NCBI RefSeq assembly: GCF_004346185.1
Contig: NZ_SMAI01000001.1
Span: 434,001 to 498,000, forward strand
DNA from: Aquabacter spiritensis
GTDB taxonomy: Bacteria > Pseudomonadota > Alphaproteobacteria > Rhizobiales > Xanthobacteraceae
Direction: 5' to 3'
DNA: 64,000 nucleotides
Shown here: positions 21,121 to 47,214 of the stretch, piece after piece
Layout: each line of letters starts with the position of its first letter
How positions within the stretch are numbered: position 1 is the stretch's first letter
The notes under the pieces: model-generated
Database searches by the model: none
Told to the model about the DNA's origin: nothing
The model's input: the letters and a program-made list of their open reading frames with translations, nothing else
Made by a program: the position numbers and the translations under genes

Positions 21121-21142
21121 TAAGAACTGGTTAAGAGCTGGA
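21121..21142 (-). promoter_or_regulatory. Proposed FtcR box (divergent copy) upstream of ftcR
   Basis: On the minus strand this reads TCCAGCTCTTA + ACCAGTTCTTA, two 11-bp direct repeats sharing 9 of 11 bases. It shares the (G/T)C(A/C)AG(C/T)T core and the 11-bp period with the other boxes in this window. It ends 86 bases upstream of the ftcR start. Otherwise I see no gene in 21036-21238. Confidence 0.45.
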
Positions 21143-21238
21143 ATCACTCCAAACAATCGAAGTCGCATCGGGTTTGGGGGACATTTCCCTGTCAGAATGG
21201 CTGGATCGACGCCCCAGGGAGGGGCGGCGGATCGGCGG

Positions 21239-21286
21239 AAAAACGCAAACGGCGGCGCCCGGGGTCGCCGGGCGCCGCCGTTTGCG
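21239..21286 (-). terminator. Strong Rho-independent terminator downstream of cheY
   Basis: A 19-bp perfect stem (21286-21268 with 21262-21244, loop of 5) is followed on the minus strand by five T residues (21243-21239). It ends the monocistronic cheY transcript before the ftcR promoter region. Confidence 0.85.
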
Positions 21287-21317
21287 CGGCAGGAGCGAGG
21301 AAGCCTTTTGCGTGCGG

Positions 21318-21701
21318 TCAGCCCTCGAACACGTTCTCGATCTTGCTCTTCAACGTCTGCGCGTTGAATGGTTTCACGATATAGTTGTTCACACCCGCCT
21401 TCTTGGCCGCAATGACGTTCTCGGACTTCGCCTCGGCCGTCACCATGATGAAGGGCAGGCGCGTCAGATCCGCATCGTCGCGCACGCGCTTCAGGAGTTC
21501 GTAGCCGGTCATCGGCTCCATATTCCAGTCCGAGATCACGAGCCCATATTGCCGCTCCTTGAGCTTGGCCAGGGCCTCCGTCCCGTCGGCGGCTTCGTCG
21601 ACATCGTCGAAGCCGATCTGCTTCAACAAATTTCGGATGATGCGCACCATCGTCTTGTAGTCGTCGACTACGAGAACCGGCATCGACAGGTCAACTGACA
21701 T
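21318..21701 (-). CDS. cheY: Chemotaxis response regulator CheY
   Basis: Single-domain receiver of 127 residues that, when phosphorylated by CheA, binds the flagellar switch. It shows VVDDYKTM, Asp in VISDWNMEP, MVTAEA with Thr, and NYIVKPF with Lys, all canonical; WNMEPMTGYELL is typical CheY1/CheY2 in alphaproteobacteria. The ATG at 21701 has AAGGAG 7 bases upstream; an in-frame GTG at 21704 is less likely. Alone between its own FtcR box (21781-21802) and a strong terminator; divergent from cheZ. A second CheY lies at 62535-62915. Confidence 0.93.
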   Translation of the reverse strand: MSVDLSMPVLVVDDYKTMVRIIRNLLKQIGFDDVDEAADGTEALAKLKERQYGLVISDWNMEPMTGYELLKRVRDDADLTRLPFIMVTAEAKSENVIAAKKAGVNNYIVKPFNAQTLKSKIENVFEG

Positions 21702-21780
21702 CACAAGGCTCCTTCATAAGGCAGCAAATATTGCGCGGCGGAACGCCCTGCGCGTCCGTCACTGAGCATTTTCTAGTCGC

Positions 21781-21802
21781 GCGAAGCTTGCGTGAAGCTT
21801 GC
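21781..21802 (-). promoter_or_regulatory. Proposed FtcR box between cheY and cheZ
   Basis: Minus strand: GCAAGCTTCAC + GCAAGCTTCGC, an almost exact 11-bp tandem repeat (10 of 11 identical). It ends 80 bases upstream of cheY and 84 bases upstream of divergent cheZ, so it could serve both. Best-conserved copy in the window together with the fliC box. Confidence 0.65.
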
Positions 21803-21886
21803 GACAGCCTTTGAGGGGCACTTTTCTTGATCATTCAAAGTATAATACACACTTTCTCGAGAAGCCCGTTCCAAAAGGAGACCCGG

Positions 21887-22576
21887 ATGTCCACGAGCCG
21901 CCCGTTTCGCATTGAAGGCAGCGTCCGCACCCCCGCCGCATCCGCCAACGCCGTCTCAGTGGCGCAGCTCGACCGTGTCCTAACGGAACTCTCCGCTTTG
22001 CGCAGCGACCTCGCCAAGGCGGTGCGCCCATGCCCCTCGGGCGAGCCCGAATGCGCCCGTCACGCCGTCTGGCAGGGCGTGGAAACGATCCGCGAAGCGA
22101 TCGACAGCACCAAATATGAGATCGCGACCATCCATGCCGGCCATACGTCCGGGACCAAGCTCGACCGCGCCACCTTCGAACTGAGCGCGGTAGTCGGCGA
22201 CACCGAGGCAGCCACCGAGGAAATTCTCTCTGCCGCCGAAGAAATCGATGCGCTCGCCAGCCGCCTCTCGCGCAATCCGGAGAATGCCCGGGAAGTGGTT
22301 CAGGAGATCCACGATTGCGCGGTGCGGATCTTCGAGGCGTGCAATTTCCAGGACATTACCGGCCAGCGCATCAGCAAGGTCGTGGGCCTGATGCAGTTCA
22401 TCGAACATCACGTCTCGCGGATGACCGCAATTTGGGGCGGCAGCGAAGAGGTGGCGCGGATCGCAGACACCATATCCCGCGAGCGCACCGGGGACGAAGC
22501 GCTGCTCAACGGCCCCTCCTTGACCACGGACGCCAATGTGGTGTCGCAGAACGACATCGATTCCCTGTTTGCCTAA
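21887..22576 (+). CDS. cheZ: Chemotaxis protein phosphatase CheZ
   Basis: Dephosphorylates CheY-P. 229 residues, mainly long helices forming the CheZ hairpin (about 60-185). The catalytic segment ACNFQDITGQRISKVV holds Asp156 and Gln160, with the same i/i+4 spacing as the catalytic pair of enterobacterial CheZ. The C-terminal tail ends SQNDIDSLFA, which resembles the CheY-binding peptide usually found at the N-terminus of FliM. The start at 21887 has AAAAGGAG 6 bases upstream; the upstream in-frame extension lacks a ribosome-binding site. Divergent from cheY across a shared FtcR box. Confidence 0.92.
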   Translation: MSTSRPFRIEGSVRTPAASANAVSVAQLDRVLTELSALRSDLAKAVRPCPSGEPECARHAVWQGVETIREAIDSTKYEIATIHAGHTSGTKLDRATFELSAVVGDTEAATEEILSAAEEIDALASRLSRNPENAREVVQEIHDCAVRIFEACNFQDITGQRISKVVGLMQFIEHHVSRMTAIWGGSEEVARIADTISRERTGDEALLNGPSLTTDANVVSQNDIDSLFA

Positions 22577-22614
22577 AGCGGGTCGGCAGCTCGACCACAA
22601 GCTGCGACCGATGA

Positions 22615-22667
22615 AGACGGATTTGCCTTTCGGGTTGCTGCACCCTGATCGGCGAGGCCGTCTTTTT
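22615..22667 (+). terminator. Probable terminator downstream of cheZ
   Basis: AGACGG (22615-22620) pairs with CCGTCT (22658-22663), followed by a five-T run (22663-22667). Inner pairing GGGT/ACCC adds a branch. It lies in the 123-base gap between convergent cheZ and the transglycosylase gene. Confidence 0.5.
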
Positions 22668-22699
22668 GCTTTCGAGGCGGGCTTCGCCGCCCCCTCCGC

Positions 22700-23275
22700 C
22701 TATTCGCAGAATGCCTTCGCGTCGGGGGTCCAGGCGCCGAAGCCGGAGCGCACAAGATTGCGCATCACGGCGCAGACATAGCGCTTCTGCGCCGGCGTGT
22801 TGTGGGGACCCGCATTGTAGCGGGCGGCCGCGATGATCCAGCTGCCATGCCGCTTGCGCAATACCGCGAGGAAGCGGGCGGCCTGCTCGACATTGGCGCG
22901 CGGATCGAACATCTCCTCGAGCGATTTGAACTCGGCCTTGTGCCAGTAATAGTTCGCCTGCATGCAGCCGAGATCGATCAATTCCGTGCCTGTCGCGCGG
23001 ATCTCGTGGAAGCGACGGATCGCGTCCGCGCGCGACTTGCCGACATAGCTGATCGTCTTGGTCGCCACCAAAAGCGGCTGGAGCGTCCCGCTGCCCCCGC
23101 TTTCGGTGAGACCGACGGCATAGAGGATCGCCAAGGGCACGCCGAATTTCTGCGATGCGTGCGCAATTTCCGCCTCGCAGACGCCGAGCTTGGCCTCGCC
23201 GGCGGGCGCGGCGTCGAGCGGGCTAGCCGCGATCGTTGCGACGATCGCGAGCGCCGCGATCCGACGGAGTGTCAT
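22700..23275 (-). CDS. Secreted lytic transglycosylase (SLT domain)
   Basis: Predicted periplasmic murein hydrolase of 191 residues. A signal peptide (1-22, ending SPLDA) is followed by an SLT domain (about 35-180) with YAVGLTESGG (catalytic Glu), IDLGCMQANYYW and AAARYNAGP. It cleaves peptidoglycan strands, probably to let the flagellar rod through: the FlgJ-like protein of this locus lacks a hydrolase domain. Its start lies 53 bases inside the 3' end of fliK, preceded by GGAAGG, so it is the last gene of the fliF-fliK operon. Confidence 0.9.
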   Translation of the reverse strand: MTLRRIAALAIVATIAASPLDAAPAGEAKLGVCEAEIAHASQKFGVPLAILYAVGLTESGGSGTLQPLLVATKTISYVGKSRADAIRRFHEIRATGTELIDLGCMQANYYWHKAEFKSLEEMFDPRANVEQAARFLAVLRKRHGSWIIAAARYNAGPHNTPAQKRYVCAVMRNLVRSGFGAWTPDAKAFCE

Positions 23276-25865
23276 CGTCCCTGCTTCCTTCCGAGGCGCC
23301 CTCCTCCGAACCCCGGTCCTGGCGCTGATCGGACATCGGGCGGGGATCCTGTGCGGATCCGATCGAAAGGCGCGGCGGCGCATCGAAGCGCATCCAGCCC
23401 GCGCCGAAGTCGGCGGCATCGACGACGGACACCTCTGCCGGACCCTCGGCGCGCAGCAGATCGGCGAGCCGGTTCTGATCCAGGCGCAGCATGCGCGCGG
23501 TGGCCGGGTCGTGAGCGTGGAGCTTCACTTCCAAGCCGTCGCCGCTGACGCGAAGCCGCAATGTGATGGTCCCGAGATCCGTCGGGTTCAACTCGATATC
23601 GAGCAGCCGGAGCGGCTGTCCGGCGCGGGGCATGTGCCCCTCCCCGGGTGGCGGAGTTCTTCTGAGCTCGGCCGCCTCGCTGCCGATCGCACGGGCGAGT
23701 TGGTCGAGACTTTGAGCGGGCAAGCCCGGGGGGGTCGCTGCCGCGTCGATCGTCGGGAGAACCGCGCCCGTCTCGCCCGCTTTTTCGGCACCCGCCGCCG
23801 AAGGCATTTCGGAGGCGCCGCGGATCGGTACATCGCGATCCAACCGGCGTGGATCGATGCGGTCCGCTTCAGCGCCCGCCTCGACCGGCTCCGGCCCGCG
23901 CGCAGCGGGCAGGGCCGATGCGCGGTCGGACTCAGGGAGCCGCACCCGCGCCGGCGTGTCGCCTTCGGCCATGAGGCGGGCGGATTCTTGTGGTGCAGGA
24001 TCGACATAGAGCGGGGAGGCAGGCTGAGACTGCGCGGACGACGAAGGCGACGTCGGCGCGTCGCCTGACGCGCCGATGGAACGAAGGCTCCGGGGCGGAC
24101 TTGAAGCCGGCATCATGATGCCAGGCAAGGCGCTTGACGGAGCGACAGCCCCCGGAGATGAGCGATCCATGGTCCGTTCGCGCTCCAAGATCGGATGCGC
24201 AAACGGGGTCGCTTCAAGCGCACCCTTTCCTCCCGGCCCGGCCCCCATGACGCCGTGACCGGTCCGATCGCCCTCGGTGGGGACCAAGCCGGCAGCCGGG
24301 ATGCGGCGCGACACACCTTCGAGATCGCGGAAATTGTCGGCCCCGCCGAGAGGTGTCTCGGGCGGCGTCCAACTGCGCACCGGCGCGAAATGCGTCTGCT
24401 GGCCCAGTACCGTAATGCGGATCGGGGATGGCTCTGCGGAGGCGGCGATCCCGGCGGGAGATGGCGCGGGCAGAGCTTGATGCGGTGGGGAGGGCCTGTG
24501 CTCCGGCATCGGATCGGTCCTGCCCGGCATGGCAAGCGGCGCCGGCACGGTTTGCAGCAGCGGATCCAAAGCCGGGCGTGCGGACGCATCCGGCGGCGGT
24601 GGAGCGCGCTCGCCATCTTCGGACAGAACGGGGGCGGCCGAAAATTCGCGGGCACCGTCGGGACCCGCAAGGAAAGGATCAGGGTGCGGGCCCGCCGTGG
24701 CGTGACCGTCAGCGACCGTCGCGGCCCTTTCCAGCCCGATCGCGGCATCGTGCGCCGGGAACCCGCGACGAGCGGCGCCCATGAGCTGGGAGGCCCCCGG
24801 CTCCCTTGCGCCGTCCCCTGGCGCTGCCTCTGCGGAACGGCGTCCGTTGTCGCGCGATGTCGCTTCGATCTGGACCTGACCACGGACCGGATCCGAGGGG
24901 TGCTCCGGACGCGAATCGTCCGGAAGCACGGGACTTGGCGGCAAAGCCGAAGCCACTGGCGGAACAGGGGCCTTCGGCGGCGTGACGGCGTCGCCCCCGA
25001 CCGCTGCCGCGACGGGCCTCGGTGCTCCCTTCGCAAACGCGGGGGCTTCGGACCACGCGCGGCGCTCCGGCGCTGTCGAATCGGGAGACGTCGTGCGTGC
25101 ATCGCCGCGCAGCCCGGCGGGACCCGCCGCGCGCGATTCTGCAACAACCGGAACGGGCTCTTCGATCCTGCCGGATTTCGTGGCGGGCACCGGCTGGGCG
25201 GCCCCACAGCCGGCGCGATTCTGCGCTGGTTCGGTTGCCGCGCTTTGCGATGCCGGATTGGCGCGGGGGAGCTGCGAACCGTCTTTGATGTCATTGCACG
25301 ACGGGAGGACAACCCGCCGCATTGCGTCGGCGGGGCTGCCGGGCTTCCGCATCGCATCATCTGGCTCGGGAGCCTCCCCCGCAAGAGCGCCTTGCGGCGC
25401 GCGCGCGGCCGGCTCGGGGGCGTCACGCCGCGACGTGGGAGAGATGACCGCGGATTCGGAGGATTCCAAAATCGCTGCCGCGGCATTCCGCGCGCCGGCG
25501 GAGGAGTGCAGCGTTGTGCCGAGATCGGCCCCCCGAGCGCGCGAGGAGACCGCGATGCCCCCCGCGCCCCGAATGGGATCCGAGGGCGCCGCGGCGAGGT
25601 CCTCATCCGGCATCTGCACGGCGGGGGCCAGGCTCGGATTTTCCGCTGAAGTCCATATCGGCCGGATCGTCAGACGGACCCGCGGCGCGGCCTCGGCCGG
25701 GTCACCGCTCGGCGCGGCAGGCTCCTGTCCGGCAAGATCTTCGAGGAGGCTTGAGAATGGGGCTTCGGCCGCGCCGGAGTCTCCTCCCTCCGGGCCGGTC
25801 GGCGTTCCCGTGCGCGACCCGAGGCCCTGAGCGCGGAATGGGGCGCCGGCATCGAATGGGTTCAC
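23223..25865 (-). CDS. fliK: Flagellar hook-length control protein FliK (MotD)
   Basis: Secreted ruler and substrate-specificity switch that sets hook length and interacts with FlhB. 880 residues. The first 700 or so are low-complexity, rich in Pro, Ala, Ser and Gly, as in other FliK proteins but longer than usual. The conserved C-terminal Flg_hook domain (about 735-835) includes PLRLLDIELNPTDLGTITLR and LKLHAH-like segments, then a charged tail. The start is GTG, overlapping the motC stop as GTGA. The gene order motB-motC-fliK is that of rhizobia, where this gene was first called motD. Confidence 0.9.
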   Translation of the reverse strand: MNPFDAGAPFRAQGLGSRTGTPTGPEGGDSGAAEAPFSSLLEDLAGQEPAAPSGDPAEAAPRVRLTIRPIWTSAENPSLAPAVQMPDEDLAAAPSDPIRGAGGIAVSSRARGADLGTTLHSSAGARNAAAAILESSESAVISPTSRRDAPEPAARAPQGALAGEAPEPDDAMRKPGSPADAMRRVVLPSCNDIKDGSQLPRANPASQSAATEPAQNRAGCGAAQPVPATKSGRIEEPVPVVAESRAAGPAGLRGDARTTSPDSTAPERRAWSEAPAFAKGAPRPVAAAVGGDAVTPPKAPVPPVASALPPSPVLPDDSRPEHPSDPVRGQVQIEATSRDNGRRSAEAAPGDGAREPGASQLMGAARRGFPAHDAAIGLERAATVADGHATAGPHPDPFLAGPDGAREFSAAPVLSEDGERAPPPPDASARPALDPLLQTVPAPLAMPGRTDPMPEHRPSPPHQALPAPSPAGIAASAEPSPIRITVLGQQTHFAPVRSWTPPETPLGGADNFRDLEGVSRRIPAAGLVPTEGDRTGHGVMGAGPGGKGALEATPFAHPILERERTMDRSSPGAVAPSSALPGIMMPASSPPRSLRSIGASGDAPTSPSSSAQSQPASPLYVDPAPQESARLMAEGDTPARVRLPESDRASALPAARGPEPVEAGAEADRIDPRRLDRDVPIRGASEMPSAAGAEKAGETGAVLPTIDAAATPPGLPAQSLDQLARAIGSEAAELRRTPPPGEGHMPRAGQPLRLLDIELNPTDLGTITLRLRVSGDGLEVKLHAHDPATARMLRLDQNRLADLLRAEGPAEVSVVDAADFGAGWMRFDAPPRLSIGSAQDPRPMSDQRQDRGSEEGASEGSRDDDTPSDRGARDRRNDRG

Positions 25866-27682
25866 CGCTGAGCCCCTTTCAACAGCGCATCCGCGGCCTC
25901 GACGGCGCTGCGGGCGCGGTCGAGCACCGGGAGCGTTTCATCTTTCGCGAGCGCGACGGGGCCTGCGGCCGGAGGCGGCAGCGCAACCCCCTCGGCGGCC
26001 TGGCGCACCATGTTCGCCGTGGCCGATGCCGCATCGAGGAGCGCGACGTCGGCCGGTACGAGCCGGTCGCGGTCGACCGTGCGCAGATCGGTGAGGGCCT
26101 CGCCATAGGTATCGGCGTTCGGCGCGAGCGAGGCCCCGCGATAGAGCCGCGCGCGTTCGGCATCGACACTGTTGCGCGGTGTGCCGGAGAGTGCACGCTC
26201 GGCCGCCAATCCGGCCGCCGCAGTTTTGCCCTGCACGATGGCCGCGCGGGCGACCAGCAATTCGAGATCGCGTCGGCTTTCGGGTTCGAGCGGCTCCAGG
26301 AGATCATCCAAACGATGGATCTGGTCCGGATCCCCGATGAAGGTCATGCGCGAGAGCGCGGCGGCGAAGCGCTGGCGGAAGTTCCCCGCATAGACCGAGT
26401 TGCGGAAACGGAAGAGATATTGCCGCGCCAGCCGCTCGAACGCCTGGGCGTCGCCGGCCTGGCTCGCGACCAGGATGGCGCGGCGCAGGGCGGCCTCTTC
26501 GACCAAGGTGCCGGGCGCCAGAAGCCGGGCAGTGTCGAGCAGATCTGCGGCGCGCTTGGGATCCTTGCGCACCCAAAGCGCGGCCTGCGCCAGGGCCACC
26601 TGGCCACCGAGGCTGGAGGGCAGGCTGCGCGGATCGATCTCGGACAATTGCCGAAGCGCCTCTTCCTCGCGCCCCTCGAGATAAGCCAGCGCCCCCCGCA
26701 GAAGGCGTGAATCGAGGGCCGGCGGCGGCTGCTGGCCCATCATCCTACGGAGCGTGGCGGGGTTGCCGCCGCTGAGGAAATAGGTCACCGCCGCGCGGGC
26801 GTTGCGGGGATCCTGCCAGACGACGGGATCCGCTGCCGCGAAGTCCTGCTCGATGCGCGTGATCAAGGCACGCTGGGCGGTCAGTGCATCCGTCGAGCCG
26901 GCCGCCATCTGGTCCTGCAGGCGGCGCAGCGTACGCACCATCTCCTGCGGCCAGAGCGGGGAGCGCCCGCCGGCAAGTTCGGCAGCTGCCGGTCGGGGAG
27001 CTTCGACCTTCGCAACACTGGGCGGCGGCGCGGGAGCAGGCGCGGGCGGAGATGCGGCAGGCGCCGCGACCTGCGCAGGTGCGGGCTGAACGGTTGCGGG
27101 CGAGACCGGTGGCACTGCCGGCGGCGGAGCCGGCAAGGAAGGAGCCGGCGCTTCGATGCGCGCGAGGACCGGGACCGGAGCCGGCGGAGGCGAGACCGAA
27201 ACAGAAGGTGCGGCCGCCGCAGGCGGAGCATCCGGCACAGGGGGGCGCTCTTCGGCGGCGGGGGCCTGAACCGGCGCGCCGGCGAGGGAAATCTCGGATG
27301 GACGGGGCTTCGGCAGCGGCGCGACCGCCTGAGGCAGCGGGGGCGGCCCGGCCAGCCGCACTGGAGATGGCACGGAAACCACCGGCTGTTGAGGCGCTGC
27401 CGCCGGTGCGGGAGGTGCGGGTGCCGGGTTGGCCGGGCGAACAGGCGCTGCAGGGCGCGGCGCGGCGGCCGACACCGGCGGGCGCGTCGGGGTCGCAGCG
27501 CTCGCCGGGGCGGACGGCGGCGGGGCGGGGCGAGACGGGCGCGGGCGCGGCGGCGCCGCAGAGGCGGGAGATGCCGCAGGCGCATCCTGTCGCAGACCCG
27601 CCCAGGGGTCCGCAGTCTGCGCCCACGCACCGCCGCTCGTGAGGAGCAGGACCACGGTCAGAAAGAGGCGGGCGAGGATCAC
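25862..27682 (-). CDS. motC: Periplasmic motility protein MotC
   Basis: Rhizobial stator-associated periplasmic protein thought to bind MotB and regulate the proton channel. 606 residues: signal peptide (1-21, ending GGAWA), an exceptionally Pro/Ala-rich stretch (about 24-235), then a helical, TPR-like MotC domain (about 245-605) with FLSGGNPATLRRM and LFRFRNSVYAGNFRQRF. The start is GTG overlapping the motB stop (GTGA), and its own stop overlaps fliK in the same way. Its folding helper MotE is encoded at 34958-35461. Confidence 0.88.
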   Translation of the reverse strand: MILARLFLTVVLLLTSGGAWAQTADPWAGLRQDAPAASPASAAPPRPRPSRPAPPPSAPASAATPTRPPVSAAAPRPAAPVRPANPAPAPPAPAAAPQQPVVSVPSPVRLAGPPPLPQAVAPLPKPRPSEISLAGAPVQAPAAEERPPVPDAPPAAAAPSVSVSPPPAPVPVLARIEAPAPSLPAPPPAVPPVSPATVQPAPAQVAAPAASPPAPAPAPPPSVAKVEAPRPAAAELAGGRSPLWPQEMVRTLRRLQDQMAAGSTDALTAQRALITRIEQDFAAADPVVWQDPRNARAAVTYFLSGGNPATLRRMMGQQPPPALDSRLLRGALAYLEGREEEALRQLSEIDPRSLPSSLGGQVALAQAALWVRKDPKRAADLLDTARLLAPGTLVEEAALRRAILVASQAGDAQAFERLARQYLFRFRNSVYAGNFRQRFAAALSRMTFIGDPDQIHRLDDLLEPLEPESRRDLELLVARAAIVQGKTAAAGLAAERALSGTPRNSVDAERARLYRGASLAPNADTYGEALTDLRTVDRDRLVPADVALLDAASATANMVRQAAEGVALPPPAAGPVALAKDETLPVLDRARSAVEAADALLKGAQR

Positions 27683-29467: not shown

Positions 29468-29470
29468 GGA

Positions 29471-31111
29471 TCAGGCCTTTGCTTCCTGCCGCAGCCACTG
29501 ACGCAGGATCGCGGCGGCCTGCTCTTCGTCGAATTCGATGATCTGCTCCAACCGCTTCTGCGGGGACCGGTTGAGCCGGCTGGTGAGATCCTCGATGAGG
29601 CTGACTGGACCTTCGGCCGCAGGGAGCGCCTCGCCTCCTTCGCCGACCGCGGCCTCCGCCTGCGGCGCCGCCAGCATGGCCGCCTCGAGCGCGTCGACCT
29701 CGCTCTCCGGCCGGGCAAGGATGGCCCGGACCGCCGGCCGCAGGCCGAACCAGATCAACAGGGCGGCGACCACCAGGATGGTGAGCGCGTTCACCAGCGT
29801 TCCGGCCTGGCGCAGGAGGAGTTCGGTCCAGCTCAGCGGTGGGATCGGGTCGAGCGCATGGCCACCGTCGGCGAACGGCGTCGCCACCACCTTCAGTTTA
29901 TCGCCGCGCTCCTTGTCGAAGCCGGCGGCCGACCCCGCCAATTGTTCGATCTCGTAGATCTGCGTCTCGATGGGCACCACGTCCGACCCTCGACCGGCAT
30001 TGGCGGCGAGCCGGTCGCGGTTGACGAGGACGGCGATCGACAGGGTCTCCAGCGCGAAGCCTTCGCGCACGGTCTGCACGGTGCGCGAGGAAATCTCGAA
30101 ATTGGTCAATTCTTCGCGGCGATCGTTCTGCTCGGTCGAATCGTTGCCGGCATCGCCGCCGGCCTGCTGTTGCGGAAGGTTCTGCTGGACTGTGGTGGGC
30201 GCCTGCTTCGTGCGGTTCTGCGCCGTCCCTTTCTCCTTGATCACGCGCACCGAGCGCTCCGTCTTGGAAGCGGGATCGAACGTCACCTCGCTGCTCGTGC
30301 TGCGGTTGGTGTCGATGCGCGCCGAGACGCTGATCTCGAAATTGCCGATGCCGAGATAGGGCGTCAGCGTGCGCCGGATCTTCTCCTCGGTCTCGCGCGC
30401 CACCTGCTGCTGCAGGATCGCCTTGCGGCCCGAAGGCGCATTCGCCTCGTCCTCTCCCGAGGAGAGGACAGACCCCTCGGTGCTGAGCACGGTGACGCTA
30501 TCGAGCTTCATGCCGGGAATGGCCGAGGCCACGAGATGGCGGATCGCCTGGGCGGAGGAGGCGTCGTCGGCATTCTCGGTGCGGATCACCACGGAAGCGG
30601 ACGCCGCCTGCTGGTCACGCCGGAACGAGGATCGGTCCGGCAGCACGATATGGACGCGCGCCGCCTTGATGCCCTTCATGGTCTGGATGGTGCGGGCAAG
30701 TTCCCCCTCGAGGGCGCGCACCCGTGTCACCTCCTGCATGAAGGAGGTGAGACCGAAGGACCGCATGTCGTTGAACAATTCGTAACCGGTGCTTGCGCTC
30801 TGCGGCAGACCTTTCACGGCCAGCAGCATGCGCGCCTTCGCGGTGTCGGAATGCGCCACGAGCACCGCCGCGCCGTCCGAACTGACGTCGAACGAGATAC
30901 CGGCATCCTTCAGCGCGCCGCCGATGCGGGTGACGTCGTCCCGGCTGAGATTGGCGTAGAGCGTTTCGCGCTCCGGCTGCCCGAGATAATAGGCGCCGGC
31001 AGCGATCACGCCGAGGACGGTGAGGCCCACGAGCCCCAAAGCGGCGAGCCGCCGCGTGCCGAGGCTGCGCAGGTTGCCGAGAATGAGATTGAGCTGGTCG
31101 CGTCCGATCAT
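29471..31111 (-). CDS. fliF: Flagellar MS-ring protein FliF
   Basis: Builds the MS ring, the base of the rotor in the inner membrane. 546 residues: N-terminal TM (about 19-40), ring-building motifs (about 45-225, with YANLSRDDVTRIGGAL and RVHIVLPDRS), a beta-collar region, a second TM near 435-460, and a C-terminal cytoplasmic tail with the FliG-binding segment (RLNRSPQKRLEQIIEFDEEQ). First gene of the fliF-fliH-motB-motC-fliK-transglycosylase operon. A weak FtcR box lies about 120 bases upstream; FtcR control of fliF is established in Brucella. Confidence 0.95.
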   Translation of the reverse strand: MIGRDQLNLILGNLRSLGTRRLAALGLVGLTVLGVIAAGAYYLGQPERETLYANLSRDDVTRIGGALKDAGISFDVSSDGAAVLVAHSDTAKARMLLAVKGLPQSASTGYELFNDMRSFGLTSFMQEVTRVRALEGELARTIQTMKGIKAARVHIVLPDRSSFRRDQQAASASVVIRTENADDASSAQAIRHLVASAIPGMKLDSVTVLSTEGSVLSSGEDEANAPSGRKAILQQQVARETEEKIRRTLTPYLGIGNFEISVSARIDTNRSTSSEVTFDPASKTERSVRVIKEKGTAQNRTKQAPTTVQQNLPQQQAGGDAGNDSTEQNDRREELTNFEISSRTVQTVREGFALETLSIAVLVNRDRLAANAGRGSDVVPIETQIYEIEQLAGSAAGFDKERGDKLKVVATPFADGGHALDPIPPLSWTELLLRQAGTLVNALTILVVAALLIWFGLRPAVRAILARPESEVDALEAAMLAAPQAEAAVGEGGEALPAAEGPVSLIEDLTSRLNRSPQKRLEQIIEFDEEQAAAILRQWLRQEAKA

Positions 31112-31231
31112 CTCTGCCCGTCAGAAAGTTACGTGCCGGCCCGCTGACGCGGACCGGCACGAGCCGGGTGCGGGGATGCACCCTTCGCAGCGGGCGGGGG
31201 GGAAATCCGCTGCGCCTTCGGACTTTGGAAC

Positions 31232-31253
31232 GGCAACCTTGCCTGGGCATTGC
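31232..31253 (-). promoter_or_regulatory. Proposed FtcR box upstream of fliF (weak first half)
   Basis: Minus strand: GCAATGCCCAG + GCAAGGTTGCC. The second half matches the flgB box half exactly over 11 bases; the first half keeps only GCAA. It ends 121 bases before the fliF start. Confidence 0.45.
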
Positions 31254-31340: not shown

Positions 31341-32594
31341 TCAGCCGCGGAACAGGCTGAGCACGCTCTGCGACGAGGAATTCGCAATGCCGAGCGACTG
31401 CACGGCCAGCTGCTGCTGCGTCTGCAGCGCCTTCAGCTTGGTGGATTCCTCTTCCATGTTGGCGTCCACCAGCGAACCGATCGCGCGGTCGTTGGCGTCC
31501 TGGAGCGCCTGGACGAAGTTGGTCTGCGACTCGATGCGGCTGGAAGCCGAGCCGAGGGTCGTGGACGCATCCGTCAGGTCCGTGAGCGCGGCATCGACGA
31601 TCGAGGTGAAGTTCGCGAGCTTGTCGAGATCGGCTTCGCTGGCCGACAGCCCGGAAATGTCGATGTCCATGATCGAGCTCACGGTCGCAGTACCGCTCGA
31701 GGTCGCGGCAACCCGGGTCTTGTCGAGGATGCCGAGGCTATCGGTGCCGGAGGCATCGAGCGCATTGTTGAGAGCGAGAACCGCACCGTCGAGCGCGGTC
31801 TTCTTGGCAGCCTCGGCCGTGGAGAAGGCCGAATCGCGGGTGTTGGTCGCCGTCGCGTAGGCAGCGTCGCGGGCCGCCACCGCAGCGGCGTCCATGGCGC
31901 TGCCTGCGAAGGCCGTGTCGGCGGCGGTGATGGCCGTGTCATAGGCCGTGGTCGCCGTCGTCTTTGCCGTGGTGTAGGCGGTCCCGGCCGTCGTCTGGGC
32001 CGTGGAATAGCCGGCGGAGGCCGTCGTAACCGCCGCATCGACAGCGGTGTGGACCGTCGCATTGGCATCGAGCAGCTTGAAGCTGGTCGTGTCGATATCG
32101 ATCGTGTCGACCTGGACGCTGTCGCCGGTGCGGGAGAACGAAGCGACCACCGACTTGGTGGCATTGTAGTTCGCTTCGCTGGAATCCACGGAAAGCCAGT
32201 TGGCACCCGAGATGACCGTGCTGTTGGCGTTGCTCTTCAGCTCGCTCAGCAGGCTCTTGATCTCGGTCTGGAGCTTGGAACGGTCGGCATCCGGGGACGC
32301 GGCCGTGATCAGCTTTTCCTTCACCTTCTGGAGCGCGGTGCGCACCGTGTCGAGACCGGTATTGACGGTGTCGACGGAAGACTTGGCCAGGCCGAGAGCA
32401 TCCTTCACGGCGCCGAGCGCGCCATTGTCGGACCGGGTCGTGGTGGCGATCGACCAATACGCCGCATTGTCGGCGGCCGACGTGACGCGCAGGCCGGTCG
32501 AGACGTGGTTGTTGGTCTGGTCGAGGTTGGAGTTGATGGTCCGCAGGGTCTGCAGGGCGACCATGGCGGAGGTGTTGGTCATCAGGCTGGTCAT
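31341..32594 (-). CDS. fliC: Flagellin
   Basis: Filament subunit of 417 residues. The conserved D0/D1 N-terminus (1 to about 160: NTSAMVALQTLRTINSNLD, VSTGLRVTSAADNAAYWSIA) and C-terminus (about 300-417, ending NSSSQSVLSLFRG) are intact. The central variable region (about 185-285) is an Ala/Thr-rich segment with aromatic residues at exact 11-residue spacing (196, 207, 218, 229; then 246, 257, 268), suggesting a helical insert. Only flagellin gene in the window; monocistronic, between its own terminator and that of fliP. A structured leader and an FtcR box lie upstream. No fliD or fliS is present. Confidence 0.95.
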   Translation of the reverse strand: MTSLMTNTSAMVALQTLRTINSNLDQTNNHVSTGLRVTSAADNAAYWSIATTTRSDNGALGAVKDALGLAKSSVDTVNTGLDTVRTALQKVKEKLITAASPDADRSKLQTEIKSLLSELKSNANSTVISGANWLSVDSSEANYNATKSVVASFSRTGDSVQVDTIDIDTTSFKLLDANATVHTAVDAAVTTASAGYSTAQTTAGTAYTTAKTTATTAYDTAITAADTAFAGSAMDAAAVAARDAAYATATNTRDSAFSTAEAAKKTALDGAVLALNNALDASGTDSLGILDKTRVAATSSGTATVSSIMDIDISGLSASEADLDKLANFTSIVDAALTDLTDASTTLGSASSRIESQTNFVQALQDANDRAIGSLVDANMEEESTKLKALQTQQQLAVQSLGIANSSSQSVLSLFRG

Positions 32595-32633
32595 AGTGAA
32601 TGTCCCTCAGTTTGAGTCTGAATGATTGGGGGA

Positions 32634-32711
32634 CATGCCGGGCTTGCACCGGCATGGCAGGGCGGCGTCATGCCTTTGATGGGGCGCCGCGGTCTCCGCG
32701 GACTGTGCCCC
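32634..32711 (-). other. Structured 5' leader of fliC
   Basis: Two hairpins in the probable fliC leader. CATGCCGG/CCGGCATG (32634-32641 with 32649-32656, loop of 7) lies about 40 bases before the start codon. CCGCGG-TCT-CCGCGG (32687-32701) is enclosed by GGGGC/GCCCC (32681-32685 with 32707-32711). FlbT, encoded at 51434-51892, is known in Caulobacter to bind a structured flagellin leader, so this is a candidate target (inference). Confidence 0.45.
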
Positions 32712-32760
32712 TGCCCGCCATCTGCGAGCAGTCAACCTGCCATGGCGAAAGGTATCGCAT

Positions 32761-32782
32761 CCCAAGCTTGCGCGAAGCTTGC
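32761..32782 (-). promoter_or_regulatory. Proposed FtcR box upstream of fliC
   Basis: Minus strand: GCAAGCTTCGC + GCAAGCTTGGG, an 11-bp tandem repeat sharing the first 8 bases exactly. It ends 167 bases upstream of the fliC start and lies just after the fliP terminator, so it belongs to the fliC promoter. Confidence 0.65.
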
Positions 32783-39037: not shown

Positions 39038-39073
39038 GGAAGGTCTCCGCACCGTTCGCAAGGACCTTAGGCC

Positions 39074-39095
39074 GGCAACCTTGCACGAAGCTGGC
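39074..39095 (-). promoter_or_regulatory. Proposed FtcR box upstream of flgB
   Basis: Minus strand: GCCAGCTTCGT + GCAAGGTTGCC. It sits in the 69-base gap between the hypothetical gene and flgB, implying that flgB has its own promoter. Confidence 0.6.
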
Positions 39096-42380: not shown

Positions 42381-43290
42381 CCAGGAACTCCTGCTCGAGA
42401 TCGATGAGGTCTTCGATACGCACGACATAGGCGCCTTCGGCCTGGCCGAGATGGCACCAGAACAGCGGCTGATCGCTGCTTTCGAGCTTCACTTTGCTGC
42501 GCGGCGTCGCCTGGAGCTGGAGCACGTCGCCCACCTTCAGGTCGGCGACTTCGCCGAGCGTGATCTGGCGCTCCTCGAGGATCGCCCGCAACGACACCTC
42601 GGCGCGGTTGACCTCGGTGCGGATATGGCGCGTCCAGACCGGATCGCGGGCCGTGCCCTCTCCGGCTGTCGAACGCGACAGGGTTTGGCGCATCGGGGTA
42701 AGCGCCGATTGGGGGATGATGACGAACATCTCGCCGCCGCGATTGATCGCCTGGAGCAGGAATTTCGCGGCGACACAGAGATTGTTCCGACGGCCGATGA
42801 CCGCGAACTCCATCCGCGTCTCTTGCCGCTCGAAGGTGAAACTGGCCTTTTTGACCAGAGCGAAAGACGTGCTGAGCGCCTTCGCCACCTGCTCGAACAG
42901 GGCCTGCGAAATGCGCATCTCGATATTTGAGAAGCCGCGCTCGTCGTCCACCGGCGGCTCCGAACCGTCCGCGCCGAACATCACTTCGACCATGGTGAAG
43001 ACGAGGTCGCGATCGAAGCCGACGATGACGTGGCTGTCCCATTCGGGAACGTGGAACACCCCGCACACCGCGTTCGCCTCGTAGGCGTCGAGCATGTCGC
43101 CGATCCGGCCGCTCTCGACATGGCTGAGCGAATAATAGGCCTGGGAGGCCGCAAACTGCCGCAGGCTTTCCGCGCAATGGGTCGTCATGCGATCGAAGAT
43201 GACGTGCAGCATCGGCAGCTTGTCGAGGGACAGGCCGGCTGCGTCGAGCAACATGTCCCGGATGTCGGGGTGGGAGGTCGCCGTGCTCAT
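42361..43290 (-). CDS. fliM: Flagellar motor switch protein FliM
   Basis: C-ring protein that receives CheY-P. 309 residues: middle CheC-like domain (about 40-225) and C-terminal SpoA domain (about 228-305: TEVNRAEVSLRAILEERQIT). The usual N-terminal CheY-binding peptide (LSQDEIDALL-like) is not recognisable; the N-terminus reads MSTATSHPDIRDMLLDAAG. A similar peptide instead ends CheZ. Follows motA with a 1-base gap. Confidence 0.93.
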   Translation of the reverse strand: MSTATSHPDIRDMLLDAAGLSLDKLPMLHVIFDRMTTHCAESLRQFAASQAYYSLSHVESGRIGDMLDAYEANAVCGVFHVPEWDSHVIVGFDRDLVFTMVEVMFGADGSEPPVDDERGFSNIEMRISQALFEQVAKALSTSFALVKKASFTFERQETRMEFAVIGRRNNLCVAAKFLLQAINRGGEMFVIIPQSALTPMRQTLSRSTAGEGTARDPVWTRHIRTEVNRAEVSLRAILEERQITLGEVADLKVGDVLQLQATPRSKVKLESSDQPLFWCHLGQAEGAYVVRIEDLIDLEQEFLDDILPR

Positions 43291-43291
43291 G

Positions 43292-44176
43292 TCAGGCCGC
43301 CTGCTGCATCGCGCTGGAGGAAGGAACGTTGGAGATCGCTTCGTTCTCGACCTCGTCGATGGACGGACGATCGCCGGCGGAGATGGTCTTGCGTCCGTGC
43401 TCCAGCGCGATCTGAGGCAGCGCGCCGTTCATGTAGGCGATCAGCGACTGCTTGACGATGATGAAGGGCTGGCATTGCTTCTCGCGAACCAGCTTGATCT
43501 TGGCTGCGAGCGGCGAGAGCACCGCATAAGACATGAAGATACCGACGAAGGTGCCGATCAACGCCGAGGCGATGTAGTGGCCGAGAACTTCCGGCGGCTG
43601 ATCGATGGCGCCCATGGCCTTGACGATGCCGAGCACCGCCGCGCAGATGCCGAGCGCGGGCAGCGCCTCGGCGACCGTCGAAACCGCGCCGGCGGGCTTG
43701 GTCTTATGCTTCTTCACGGTCGAGATCTCCTGCTCCATCAGAGCTTCGATCTCGTGCGAACGGGCATTTCCGATAACGATCAGGCGGGCATAATCGCAGA
43801 TATACTGCGTCAGCTCCTTGTCCTTCAGAATCGTCGGGAAGTGCTGGAAGATCGCCGATTCCTGGGGGTTGTCGATGTGCCCCTCGACCTCGTTGCGCGG
43901 CTTTGAGCGCAATTCGCGCATCAGCGCGTAGAGCAGGCCGAGAAGCGCCAGAAAATCCTTCCGCTTGGGTGCCTTCCCGCTCACCGCCTGCATGATGCTG
44001 ACCCCAGTGTCCTTGATGGTGGACATCGGGTTGGCGATGATGAAGGTGCCGAGCGCGATCCCGCCGATAATGACGAATTCGAACGGCTGCCAGATCACGT
44101 CGATATGGCCGCCCATCGCCATGAATCCGCCGAGCAGGGATGCGATGCCGACCACAAGTCCGATCATGACGCCCAA
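43292..44176 (-). CDS. motA: Flagellar motor stator protein MotA
   Basis: Stator channel subunit of 294 residues with four membrane segments (about 5-22, 30-50, 170-190, 203-225) and the large cytoplasmic loop between TM2 and TM3 that contacts FliG. Conserved MAMGGH and GIVKAMGAIDQPPEVLG are visible. The start is TTG at 44176, with GGAGGG 7 bases upstream; the in-frame ATG at 44167 would be 16 bases away. First gene of motA-fliM-(DUF6468-like)-fliN-fliG-flhB-hypothetical, behind its own FtcR box. Confidence 0.94.
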   Translation of the reverse strand: MGVMIGLVVGIASLLGGFMAMGGHIDVIWQPFEFVIIGGIALGTFIIANPMSTIKDTGVSIMQAVSGKAPKRKDFLALLGLLYALMRELRSKPRNEVEGHIDNPQESAIFQHFPTILKDKELTQYICDYARLIVIGNARSHEIEALMEQEISTVKKHKTKPAGAVSTVAEALPALGICAAVLGIVKAMGAIDQPPEVLGHYIASALIGTFVGIFMSYAVLSPLAAKIKLVREKQCQPFIIVKQSLIAYMNGALPQIALEHGRKTISAGDRPSIDEVENEAISNVPSSSAMQQAA

Positions 44177-44211
44177 TGAACTACCCTCCGCTGACGGTCA
44201 GGGTGTAGGGC

Positions 44212-44233
44212 GCGAAGGTTGCGCGAGGCTGGA
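44212..44233 (-). promoter_or_regulatory. Proposed FtcR box upstream of motA
   Basis: Minus strand: TCCAGCCTCGC + GCAACCTTCGC. Oriented towards motA and 36 bases before its start; a separate, oppositely oriented box for the right-hand operon lies 20 bases further on. Confidence 0.55.
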
Positions 44234-44253
44234 GTGCGGGAGGTCAGGCCGGC

Positions 44254-44275
44254 GCAAGCTTGACGCAAGACAGTC
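44254..44275 (+). promoter_or_regulatory. Proposed FtcR box upstream of the DUF1217-flgF-fliI operon
   Basis: Plus strand: GCAAGCTTGAC + GCAAGACAGTC. It ends 50 bases before the DUF1217 start. Its first half matches the fliC half-site over the first 8 bases. Confidence 0.55.
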
Positions 44276-44325
44276 GTCAGGATGGTCGCGGAACAGCGGC
44301 CGGATGTCCTTCGGAGCCGTGCGCC

Positions 44326-45105
44326 ATGGATACGACCTTCGCCACGTATCAGACCCTGACCCGCAATCTCGGCCGTACGCTCGCGCTGAAGCAGGCGGAG
44401 CCGGTCGTGGCGCTCGAGACCAAATATTATCTCGCGCACATCAAGGACATCAAAAACGTCGACGCCCTCGTCAGGAACACCCGGGTATTCACTTATGCGA
44501 TGAAGGCCTTCGGCCTGGAGGACATGACCTACGCCAAGGCCTATATGCGGAAGGTCCTGAACGAGGGGGTGAGCGATCCCAAATCGTTCGCCAACCGGCT
44601 CAACGACGATCGCTTCTTAAACTTCGCCAAGACCTTCAACTTCAAGGAATACGGCGCCCTCACCACGACGCGCGCGGCCGCCGGGCAGGACGTGGTGGAC
44701 AAATATGTCCGCCAGTCGCTGGAGGTCGACCAGGGCGCGGATAATGACGGCGTGCGGCTCGCGCTTTATTTCAAGCGTGCCGCGCCGGGGGTGAAGTCGG
44801 CTTATGGCCTGCTTGCCGATCCCGCGCTCTGGAAAGTTGCCAAGACCGTCTTCCGCTTCCCCGACGCGATGGGCAATGCCGCGATCGAAAGGCAGGCGGA
44901 CATCGTCAAGAAGGCGCTCAACATCGCCGACCTGCAGGATCCGGCCAAGGTCGACCGGCTGATCCAGCGCTTCACCGTGATGTGGGACGCGACGCAGGGG
45001 ACATCTTATTCGCCCGTCCTCGATTTGTTCGCCTCCCGCTCATCGAGCGGCTCGCTCGGCCTGAACACGTCCATGTCGCTCATCAATCTGCGCTACGGAG
45101 GCTGA
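44326..45105 (+). CDS. DUF1217 flagellar-locus protein
   Basis: 259-residue soluble, mostly helical protein of the DUF1217 family, found beside flgF in many Hyphomicrobiales flagellar clusters; function not established. Visible segments are YQTLTRNLGRTLALKQAEP, EPVVALETKYYLAHIKDIK and the C-terminal SLGLNTSMSLINLRYGG, a tail reminiscent of secreted axial proteins. First gene of DUF1217-flgF-fliI. The ATG at 44326 is the first codon of the conserved region. Confidence 0.82.
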   Translation: MDTTFATYQTLTRNLGRTLALKQAEPVVALETKYYLAHIKDIKNVDALVRNTRVFTYAMKAFGLEDMTYAKAYMRKVLNEGVSDPKSFANRLNDDRFLNFAKTFNFKEYGALTTTRAAAGQDVVDKYVRQSLEVDQGADNDGVRLALYFKRAAPGVKSAYGLLADPALWKVAKTVFRFPDAMGNAAIERQADIVKKALNIADLQDPAKVDRLIQRFTVMWDATQGTSYSPVLDLFASRSSSGSLGLNTSMSLINLRYGG

Positions 45106-45107
45106 GG

Positions 45108-45833
45108 ATGAGTTCCGGAGTCCATATCGCGCTCTCCGCCCAGATGACGATGGAGCGGCGCATGTCGACCATCGCCGTCAATCTCGCCAACATGAACACG
45201 CCCGGCTATCGCGCCGAGGAAGTCCGGTTCGAGACTCTCATGTCGAAGCCCGGACCTGACGGCGTTGCCTTCGCCTCGGCTGGCCAAGCCTACACCTCGC
45301 TGCGGTCGGGCCAGGTGACGTATTCCGGAAACCCACTCGACGTTGCGGTGCAGGGCGACGTCTGGCTGGCCTTGCAGACCCCGGGGGGGCGCGTCCTCAC
45401 CCGCGACGGCCGCCTCCAAATGACAGCGACCGGCGAACTCAAATCGGTCGCAGGCCACGCCGTGCTCGATCCCGGCGGGACGGCGATCCTGCTCGATCCC
45501 GCTGCGGGACAAGTCGAGATCGGCATGGATGGCGCGATCACGCAGGCCGGGCGCACGGTCGGCAGCATCGGGCTGTTCGAGATGCCGGCCGGCGCGCAGA
45601 TCGCCCGTTACGGCAATTCCGGCCTCATCCCCGACGGACAGGCCGCGCCGATCATCGACTTCACCGGCAAGGGCCTGCGTCAGGGCTATATCGAGGGCGC
45701 CAACGTCGATCCGATCCTCGAAATGACCAAGATGATCATGGTTCAGCGCGCCTTCGAGAGCGCGGCCATGGCGGTGCAGCAGAGCGAGGATCTGACTCAG
45801 CAGGCGATCACGTCGCTCGGACCCGGCACATGA
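45108..45833 (+). CDS. flgF: Flagellar rod protein FlgF
   Basis: Rod subunit of 241 residues. The N-terminal rod motif is slightly divergent (SAQMTMERRMSTIAVNLANM, then NTPGYRAEE), and the C-terminus has NVDPILEMTKMIMVQRAFES as in FlgF/FlgG. Shorter than FlgG's usual 262, normal for rhizobial FlgF. Starts 2 bases after the DUF1217 stop and overlaps fliI by 4 bases. Confidence 0.92.
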   Translation: MSSGVHIALSAQMTMERRMSTIAVNLANMNTPGYRAEEVRFETLMSKPGPDGVAFASAGQAYTSLRSGQVTYSGNPLDVAVQGDVWLALQTPGGRVLTRDGRLQMTATGELKSVAGHAVLDPGGTAILLDPAAGQVEIGMDGAITQAGRTVGSIGLFEMPAGAQIARYGNSGLIPDGQAAPIIDFTGKGLRQGYIEGANVDPILEMTKMIMVQRAFESAAMAVQQSEDLTQQAITSLGPGT

Positions 45834-47161
45834 CGAGCGGCAACGCCCTGGCGCGGCTCGCCGCCGCGGTGAATGCGGCGCGCGAGGAGACGCCGCTGGT
45901 GCGGGTGGCCGGCCATGTGCGCGAAGTCGCGCCGACCCATGTTCGCGTCGCCGGCCTGTCGAAGCATGTCCGCCTCGGCGACCGCGTCGGCATCGCGCAG
46001 GACGGGCGCACGAGCATCGGCGAGGTGGTGCGGATCGACGGCGCTGCGGCGACCGTCAAGCCGTTCGACGAGCGCGTCCAAATCGGGATCGGCGCCACCG
46101 CCTTCCGAATGGGCGCCCTCTCCCTCTCGCCCGACAGGAGCTGGAAAGGCCGCGTCGTCAATGCGCTCGGTGCCCCGCTCGATGAAGAGGGCGTCCTGCC
46201 CCGCGGCGAAACCCGGATGCCGCTGGATGCCGAGCCGCCCGCCGCCATGCGGCGGGCCCGCGTCGACACCCCGCTGCGCACCGGGGTGCGCGTCATCGAT
46301 CTGTTCACCCCGCTTTGCAAAGGCCAGCGTATGGGCATCTTCGCCGGCTCCGGTGTCGGCAAGTCGACCTTGCTCGCCATGCTGGCGCGCTGCACCGGAT
46401 TCGACACAATCGTGGTCGCTCTGGTGGGCGAGCGCGGCCGCGAGGTGCGCGAATTCCTCGAAGGCCCACTGGCGCCGAACCGGCACCGCTCCGTCGTCGT
46501 CGTCGCGACCAGCGACGAGAGCCCGATGATGCGGCGCCTCGCGCCCCAAGCCGCGCTCGCCGCCGCGGAATATTTCCGCGACCTCGGCGAGTCCGTGCTG
46601 CTGATCGTCGATAGCGTGACGCGCTACGCCCATGCGGCGCGGGACGTCGCGCTCGCCGCGGGCGAGCCGGCGGTGGCGCGCGGCTATGCTCCGAGCGTCT
46701 TCTCCTCGCTGCCAAAGCTGCTTGAACGCGCCGGCCCCGGGCCGGAGGGCGCCGGCTCCATCACCGCCGTCTTCTCGGTTCTGGTCGACGGCGACGACCA
46801 CAACGATCCCGTGGCCGACGCCATTCGCGGCACGCTCGACGGTCATATCGTGCTCGATCGCGCAATCGCCCATGAGGGGCGCTTTCCCGCGGTGAACGTC
46901 CTCGCCTCGATCTCGCGCCTCGCGGAATTGGTCTGGACTCCCGACCAGCGCGAACTGGTCCGCAAGCTGCGCGCGCTCCTCGCCCGCTTCGAGGACACGC
47001 GCGACCTGCGCCTTATGGGCGGCTACCAGGCCGGCGGCGATCCCGAACTCGACAAGGCGGTCCTGCTCGCGCCGCGCATCTACGAGGCGCTGCGCCAGAC
47101 CACCGATGCGCCCGAAAGCCGAGACGCCTTCGCCGAACTCGCCCGGGCGATCCAGGCCTGA
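45830..47161 (+). CDS. fliI: Flagellum-specific ATPase FliI
   Basis: Export ATPase of 443 residues that unfolds and delivers substrates to the gate. Walker A is GSGVGKST with Lys178, followed by VGERGREVREFLE, Walker B LLIVDSVTRYA, and the C-terminal helical domain. N-terminal beta barrel about 20-100. ATGA overlap with flgF. FliH-like partner at 28847-29467. Confidence 0.95.
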   Translation: MTSGNALARLAAAVNAAREETPLVRVAGHVREVAPTHVRVAGLSKHVRLGDRVGIAQDGRTSIGEVVRIDGAAATVKPFDERVQIGIGATAFRMGALSLSPDRSWKGRVVNALGAPLDEEGVLPRGETRMPLDAEPPAAMRRARVDTPLRTGVRVIDLFTPLCKGQRMGIFAGSGVGKSTLLAMLARCTGFDTIVVALVGERGREVREFLEGPLAPNRHRSVVVVATSDESPMMRRLAPQAALAAAEYFRDLGESVLLIVDSVTRYAHAARDVALAAGEPAVARGYAPSVFSSLPKLLERAGPGPEGAGSITAVFSVLVDGDDHNDPVADAIRGTLDGHIVLDRAIAHEGRFPAVNVLASISRLAELVWTPDQRELVRKLRALLARFEDTRDLRLMGGYQAGGDPELDKAVLLAPRIYEALRQTTDAPESRDAFAELARAIQA

Positions 47162-47192
47162 GCGCGCGTCCGATCGGATCCGGCTACACAGC

Positions 47193-47214
47193 GCCAGTTT
47201 CGCGCAAGCCTAAC
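47193..47214 (+). promoter_or_regulatory. Proposed FtcR box upstream of flgE
   Basis: Plus strand: GCCAGTTTCGC + GCAAGCCTAAC. It ends 60 bases before flgE in the 113-base gap after fliI, implying a separate promoter for the hook operon. Confidence 0.55.

Follow-up and report, generated by a model that had tools for sequence, protein, structure and literature searches.

A tandem 11-bp element lies ahead of seven motility operons in a 64,000-nt stretch of Aquabacter spiritensis DNA (contig NZ_SMAI01000001.1, positions 434,001-498,000 of the forward strand), hereafter referred to as the window, whose first letter is position 1 in all coordinates below. The element is conserved at orthologous promoters, stands at a constant spacing from a -10-like hexamer, is specific to motility promoters in a genome-wide scan, and co-occurs with FtcR, an orphan OmpR/PhoB-type response regulator encoded in the window (ftcR, 20367..21035, minus strand; Trans_reg_C, E = 1.1e-13). 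These comparisons of sequences indicate that the element is very probably the operator of FtcR, a pho-box-like site that would replace the -35 element and mediate activation.

A tandem box ahead of motility operons

A first-pass annotation of the window had listed eight 22-mers, each made of two 11-mers, as one motif shared by eight motility promoters and proposed to be bound by FtcR. Each 22-mer occurs exactly once in the window, at the place and on the strand indicated in that annotation. Every site was scored with a matrix built from the remaining seven, along with all 127,958 positions on the two window strands. The sites of cheY, fliC, flgB, motA, flgE, DUF1217, and fliF ranked 1, 3, 6, 7, 8, 9, and 16, respectively, and the site upstream of ftcR ranked 9,364 with a negative score. 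Thus, a shared motif stands for seven sites and fails for the eighth. This ranking is not free of selection since the sites had been picked beforehand; the conservation and genome-scan analyses described below are. The bare pattern GCMAGNNTNNNGCAAG matched the window five times, against 0.06 matches expected from shuffled sequences, and all five matches are located at the cheY, fliC, flgB, DUF1217, and flgE promoters. The consensus, GCMAGSYTCRC-GCAAGSTT, comprises two half-sites in direct repeat, at a distance of about 11 bp, and is followed at constant spacing by a -10-like element, xANNNT. All seven boxes (cheY, fliC, flgB, motA, DUF1217-flgF-fliI, flgE, and fliF) read towards a motility gene across the gap that precedes it, as the annotation had it.

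A sequence-only covariance model, R1, was built from 53 boxes located upstream of cheY, fliC, flgB, and fliF in relatives; identical 36-mers were removed before these training rows were chosen, and the model contained no window sequence. The putative FtcR box of cheY (21781..21802, minus strand; GCAAGCTTCAC+GCAAGCTTCGC) is located between the divergent genes cheY (21318..21704, minus strand; Response_reg, E = 1.8e-29) and cheZ (plus strand) and reads towards the former, cheZ lying on its other side. The putative boxes of fliC (32761..32782; GCAAGCTTCGC+GCAAGCTTGGG), of the flgB operon (39074..39095; GCCAGCTTCGT+GCAAGGTTGCC), and of fliF (31232..31253; GCAATGCCCAG+GCAAGGTTGCC), all on the minus strand, were recovered by the genome scan, the first two as its best and second-best matches; the flagellin gene fliC extends over 31341..32594 and fliF over 29471..31111, both on the minus strand. 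The motA box (44212..44233, minus strand; TCCAGCCTCGC+GCAACCTTCGC) and the flgE box (47193..47214, plus strand; GCCAGTTTCGC+GCAAGCCTAAC), also putative, belong to promoters outside the training set and obtained 11.2 bits (E = 0.028) and 9.2 bits (E = 0.12), respectively, in a scan of the window, the flgE box being weak in the model. The putative box of DUF1217-flgF-fliI (44243..44275, plus strand; window-scan E = 0.007) comprises three consecutive 11-mers, and its register is ambiguous. A box is present there, as annotated, and the pair originally chosen corresponds to the last two 11-mers (44254-44275); the trained model and the relatives favor GTCAGGCCGGC+GCAAGCTTGAC, and the register should probably be shifted to 44243-44264. 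A further window match at 55862, near flgJ, was weak in the trained model (E = 2.7) and was rejected.

The A. spiritensis genome (5.16 Mb) was scanned with R1 by scoring 150 of 1,579 first-look candidates. The E-values of this short model are rough and, since each scan scored only part of the first-look candidates, a missing match is weak evidence. Twelve matches were obtained at E ≤ 10. The top seven (E < 0.05) are located ahead of fliC, flgB, cheY, fliF, and three genes for methyl-accepting chemotaxis proteins (MCPs), which are unlinked and carried by contigs C7, C8, and C13. The genome contains eight MCP-domain matches, two of which lie 427 bp apart in equal-length frames, corresponding to about seven genes. 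The eighth match (E = 0.38) precedes a gene encoding a GAF-EAL protein, the eleventh is the DUF1217 box, and three (E = 0.4-1.0) are located in unrelated coding DNA, for a major facilitator superfamily protein, a ketoacyl synthase, and a protein assigned to no family. The reversed model yielded four matches, the best of which reached 12.7 bits (E = 0.64), versus at least 16.9 bits for the seven best forward matches. Equal frequency of the motif in non-motility DNA, a possibility raised by the first-pass annotation, was not observed: the seven best matches in the genome are all motility promoters.

Conservation and geometry of the boxed promoters

Regions of 350 bp ahead of orthologs were compared at 16 named loci around fliF and at the ftcR loci of relatives, which include Aquabacter, Ancylobacter, Azorhizobium, Prosthecomicrobium, and one Rhizobiaceae isolate. 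Three genomes are represented twice (L004 and L034, L007 and L037, L009 and L036), and the 20 cheY rows hence correspond to 17 distinct genomes. Conservation at orthologous promoters, another test that the annotation had set for its motif, was found upstream of cheY, flgB, fliC, fliF, motA, and flgE. The tandem box was the best match on either strand in 20/20 cheY rows, reading towards the gene 93-101 bp before the start codon. It was also the best match, again oriented towards the gene, in all rows, including the window, of flgB (13/13; 58-60 bp before the start), fliC (16/16; 154-194 bp), and fliF (16/16; 79-226 bp). Control regions upstream of fliP (14 rows) scored at most 7.9. Around the boxes of cheY and fliF, the aligned intergenic DNA was mostly unconserved; the fliC leader contained additional conserved blocks 3' of the box. 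At the promoters outside the training set, the tandem box was found in 13/13 motA rows and 9/9 flgE rows, of which six and two, respectively, were inspected by eye; the second half-site of these six motA boxes has GCAAT in place of GCAAG. Boxes ahead of flgE were also present in G058, G059, and G037, all of which are more distant genomes. A full box preceded DUF1217 in six of eight rows, including the window, and the two remaining rows retained the second half-site only. Genome G016 displayed boxes ahead of cheY, flgB, motA, flgE, and three MCP genes. At 25 fliF loci from distant families (FtcR identity of 45-58%), the best upstream box, for example NCATTTTCGC-ACAAGCTT-N7-TAGNGT, outscored every coding stretch in 21 cases.

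Selection of similar strings from GC-rich DNA, without any shared motif, does describe one of the eight sites, that of ftcR. For the other seven, chance likeness is refuted by the recurrence of the box at orthologous promoters of numerous genomes, the genome-wide specificity, and the shuffle and reversed controls, and it is negligible as an explanation of the element.

The site proposed upstream of ftcR itself was rejected. The string is another sequence than the motif and has no counterpart in relatives, whose ftcR upstream regions (26 rows) scored at most 8.8, except for one score of 14.7 on the opposite strand. Since this site falls outside the motif, autoregulation of ftcR via the box is unsupported. 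A different block, approximately TCCAA-N2-C-N-GAAGCAACTC-N3-TTGAGTGGA (about 21140-21205 in the window, minus strand), is common to the ftcR promoters of relatives and is perhaps the site for the controller of ftcR.

In the fliC leader (about 32595-32745 in the window, minus strand), the 16 rows share two elements between the box and the gene, namely the block CATGGCAGRTTGA, which is strongly conserved, and a conserved AGGCATGA...CCGG-N6-7-CCGG...AGGGACA. These blocks perhaps correspond to a binding region for FlbT or to an RNA structure. A sigma-54-like reading of CATGGCAGRTTGA was dropped because its -12 GC was unconserved in the alignment, as judged by eye.

Promoter geometry was analyzed in 38 distinct fliC, flgB, and fliF rows, picked by the 22-mer alone. 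The minimal -10 pattern xANNNT, with A and T four bases apart, occurred at one constant offset in 37 of the 38 rows, and at any other offset in at most 10. The tandem element of fliC, flgB, and fliF is thus separated by a constant short spacing from a -10 hexamer. In the window, the -10-like elements, all on the minus strand, are TAAGGT for flgB (39064..39069) and CAAAGT for fliF (31222..31227), which fully match the pattern, and GATACC for fliC (32751..32756), a partial match. The constant spacing places the second half-site at the position of the -35 element, and no conserved -35 other than the box was seen by eye in the fliC, flgB, fliF, and cheY alignments.

Other promoter classes were considered. 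The CtrA box TTAA-N7-TTAA had no match in the window. The sigma-54 pattern YGGCR-N6-TTGC had nine, versus 5.5 expected, none of which falls within 300 bp ahead of the boxed start codons, the nearest (39378, minus strand) being about 340 bp ahead of flgB. Both readings of the boxed promoters were rejected on these counts. The element could also represent an extended -35/-10 promoter, read by a sigma factor dedicated to flagellar genes and devoid of any activator site, since the box ends a short constant distance before the conserved xANNNT, i.e. at the -35 place. This is very unlikely because an 11-bp tandem repeat spanning 19-22 bp is unlike the hexamer of a -35 element, the Pfam scan of 40 window frames revealed no sigma factor, and the sigma-54 counts offer no support. 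A location over -35 would likewise be compatible with FtcR repressing or modulating transcription at the boxes without activating it. This is extremely unlikely in view of the lack of another -35 in the alignments by eye and of the phenotype of Azorhizobium caulinodans, in which deletion of the ortholog actR is reported to abolish flagella and to lower fliF and other flagellar mRNAs (PMC8639532, accessible text). Activation by FtcR bound in place of -35 remains the preferred reading of this geometry.

Co-occurrence of the box with FtcR

Sixty-one relatives were scanned for matches at E ≤ 0.05, with FtcR orthologs defined by at least 190 bits (113 candidates scored per genome, stricter filters). 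Box matches were obtained in 13 of the 15 FtcR-bearing relatives versus 2 of the 46 FtcR-less ones. There were 62 matches, 51 of which are located ahead of a gene whose product is homologous to a motility protein of the window or to an MCP of A. spiritensis, MCP genes accounting for 15. Neither of the two matches in FtcR-less relatives is located ahead of a motility homolog. The other nine matches, all in FtcR-bearing relatives, precede a GT41 glycosyltransferase with TPRs, two proteins of about 215 residues, two small NPYRPVMK proteins, one short chemoreceptor-like N-terminus without a Pfam match, and three genes without assignment. FliG was present in 33 of the 46 FtcR-less relatives, indicating that loss of the flagellum does not account for the missing matches. 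FliG scores formed two classes, with E-values of 1e-20 to 1e-26 in FtcR-bearing relatives and of 1e-36 to 1e-41 in FtcR-less ones, where one value was 1.9e-30. Genomes G027 and G029 contain both classes, and their three box matches, which precede motA and DUF1217, are 30-31 kb away from ftcR. The restriction of these matches to the ftcR-bearing cluster is in line with the control by LafR of lateral, not polar, flagella, as stated in the accessible part of PMC8429497.

A survey of the order comprised 297 genomes, of which 83 encode FtcR at E ≤ 1e-30, and scored the best 23 candidates per genome for the box at E ≤ 0.02, likewise with stricter filters. It returned 122 matches in 65 genomes. Both box and FtcR were detected in 49 genomes, FtcR only in 34, the box only in 16, and neither in 198. 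The box was therefore found in 49/83 FtcR-bearing versus 16/214 FtcR-less genomes (Fisher p = 3.6e-20; p = 3.0e-18 when the listed members of the A. spiritensis family are left out). Box presence tracks FtcR across the order, and the comparison lends support to the proposal of the first-pass annotation that the element is an FtcR operator. To assign the genes behind the matches, blastp was run against the window proteins and the MCPs of A. spiritensis, so that other motility genes were missed; similarity to the response regulator-EAL protein of the window was counted as a motility match. FtcR-bearing genomes accounted for 104 matches, of which 56 are linked to ftcR (distance within 60 kb). A motility gene follows 55 of these 56, and none of the 18 matches in FtcR-less genomes. 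Of the 48 unlinked matches, 42 were classified; the further six are two at MCP genes of A. spiritensis, one without assignment in genome G053, one ahead of flgE and 65.7 kb from ftcR (G141:C12:95315), G119:C1:1983644, and G313:C125:1137.

FtcR, its predicted regulon and related systems

FtcR of the window contains an OmpR-type DNA-binding domain, and its receiver match is below the curated cut-off. Alignment to RegX3 revealed Glu at the position of the phospho-acceptor Asp. Over 43 FtcR sequences, two of which are those of the window itself and one of which is shortened, this position is occupied by Glu in 24 cases, by Gln in 16, by Arg in two, and by Asp in a single one. Glu at this position may mimic the phosphorylated state. 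The OmpR-type winged helix, the divergent receiver without phospho-Asp, and the flagellar and che gene neighbors are those of the FtcR/Rem/LafR group. Regulators of the Rem/FtcR/LafR/ActR family are reportedly master regulators, of which mutants have been described since 2006. Across the 43 sequences, the recognition helix (E.V.E.H.SKLRKkL) hardly varies; the most divergent FtcR, that of G037, has RLRRRL for KLRKKL, and this genome had no genome-wide match. The claim that FtcR is the sole flagellar regulator in the window stands in so far as its DNA-binding domain is the only one among the 40 scanned frames, and has to be qualified since FlaF and FlbT are also encoded there. FlaF and FlbT act after transcription in other species. 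Genome G053 (L057/L058) encodes an FtcR with 70% identity and a neighboring response regulator with 64% identity. No other homolog of a window flagellar protein was found there in 38.5 kb (35 kb on one side of ftcR and less than 3 kb on the other), nor FliG in the genome, and G053 perhaps has FtcR without a flagellum.

In the mechanism that we propose, FtcR (Rem, LafR, or ActR in other Hyphomicrobiales) would recognize the tandem 11-bp element as its operator, two monomers binding head to tail on one face of the DNA, each to its own 11-bp half-site. The second of these half-sites, located downstream, would substitute for -35, with the -10 hexamer xANNNT at a constant distance, and FtcR would recruit the housekeeping RNA polymerase in the manner of PhoB at the pho box. 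FtcR is predicted to activate in this way the fliF, flgB, motA, DUF1217-flgF-fliI, flgE, and fliC operons, cheY, and the dispersed chemoreceptor genes.

Alternatively, the box might be bound by another regulator, co-inherited with this type of flagellum, FtcR acting above it. Binding of FtcR to the box is a prediction, and the FtcR motif of Brucella melitensis deduced from chromatin immunoprecipitation sequencing, TGTGGGCA, is a different sequence according to the accessible part of PMC9456535. This alternative is nevertheless unlikely because FtcR alone has a DNA-binding domain among the 40 scanned window frames, the recognition helix is constant over the same range as the box, and the matches track FtcR over many families. 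The 11-bp spacing of the half-sites also suits the OmpR/PhoB family, as this family is generally described.

Several observations weigh against binding and activation by FtcR. The assignment is well supported by comparison, and binding itself is predicted; the Brucella motif TGTGGGCA has no match in the window, and ftcR has no box at its own promoter. The constant xANNNT is not shared by the cheY rows (n = 15). In the window, the hexamers of fliC and motA (TACACC) have the expected A with C for the final T, and that of flgE (TTTGAT) has T where A is expected. The genome scan recovered five of the seven window boxes, motA and flgE falling below the cut. Four of the 25 distant fliF promoters, all from one genus, had no box scoring above coding DNA. 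In G058, the recognition helix is unchanged and no genome-wide match was obtained, though fliF and flgE are boxed. With the best 23 candidates scored in each, 34 of the 83 FtcR-bearing genomes of the order had no match at E ≤ 0.02. Of the 42 unlinked matches classified across the wider order in genomes with FtcR, only 5 precede motility genes, namely fliF, flgB, motA, and two genes resembling the response regulator-EAL gene. The non-motility matches (18 in FtcR-less genomes and 37/42 unlinked) exceed the expectation at E ≤ 0.02, indicating that the E-values of the model are too generous beyond the near clade; these non-motility matches were treated as background, and single unlinked matches outside this clade are therefore not to be trusted.

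We consider it somewhat more probable than its opposite that the whole FtcR/Rem/LafR family has this box as its ancestral operator across Hyphomicrobiales, retained even in distant families, that TGTGGGCA is not the flagellar operator of the family, and that the regulon extends beyond the flagellum. If so, this orphan regulator, whose acceptor position is occupied by Glu or Gln, would also drive chemoreceptor genes at unlinked loci and genes for EAL proteins, for a glycosyltransferase of the GT41 type, and for two protein families that are undescribed. A precise box with constant promoter geometry would make the regulon predictable from sequence in many plant- and animal-associated bacteria, and would point to new motility genes.

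Other genes were found behind boxes. Two undescribed families, each directly behind boxes in two genomes, comprise proteins of about 215 residues (L105 and L115) and small NPYRPVMK proteins (L096 and L091); neither had a Pfam match above the curated cut-off, one member of the larger family having been scanned. The GT41 glycosyltransferase (L113, G005:C51), which combines TPRs with an O-GlcNAc-transferase-like domain, possibly plays a role in flagellin glycosylation. The GAF-EAL gene of A. spiritensis (L076, G000:C4:253680) and two response regulator-EAL-like genes of other genomes (L241 and L255) are a hint that cyclic di-GMP turnover may belong to the regulon. In three and probably four genomes of one genus, the same box-like string (L227, L229, L230, and probably L224) precedes a conserved small secreted-looking protein, which did not match the window motility proteins.

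The operator is probably new, the kind of regulator is known, and the distribution is probably order-wide. Rem of Sinorhizobium and Agrobacterium, LafR of Bradyrhizobium, and ActR of Azorhizobium are orthologous or homologous flagellar regulators, Rem being reported as an aspartate-less response regulator (PMC9812332, accessible text). The accessible literature, which covers subscription papers poorly, yielded no tandem operator for any of FtcR, Rem, LafR, and ActR, so that an earlier description is possible; in these texts, no operator explains the flagellar targets of the four regulators, and the sole published motif does not fit. Brucella FtcR is stated to bind upstream of fliF in the accessible part of PMC9456535, and the motif given there is assigned to the same regulator family and unrelated to the box in sequence; being absent from the window, it was rejected as the motif of these promoters.

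The closest known architecture is the pho box of PhoB class II promoters, which likewise has head-to-tail half-sites 11 bp apart, the second at the -35 place and at a fixed distance from -10. The half-site is different (CTGTCAT versus GCAAGSTT), and FtcR departs from the PhoB class in that Glu or Gln replaces the acceptor Asp in 40 of the 43 sequences. In Methylosinus sporium 5, from the same order, Motif 3 precedes genes matching five of the seven boxed operons described here (PMC12403871). The comparison is by gene list, the letters of that motif being confined to a figure and the supplement; the accessible text calls it novel and names no regulator. Motif 3 may be identical with the present box, in which case FtcR would provide this methanotroph motif with a regulator.

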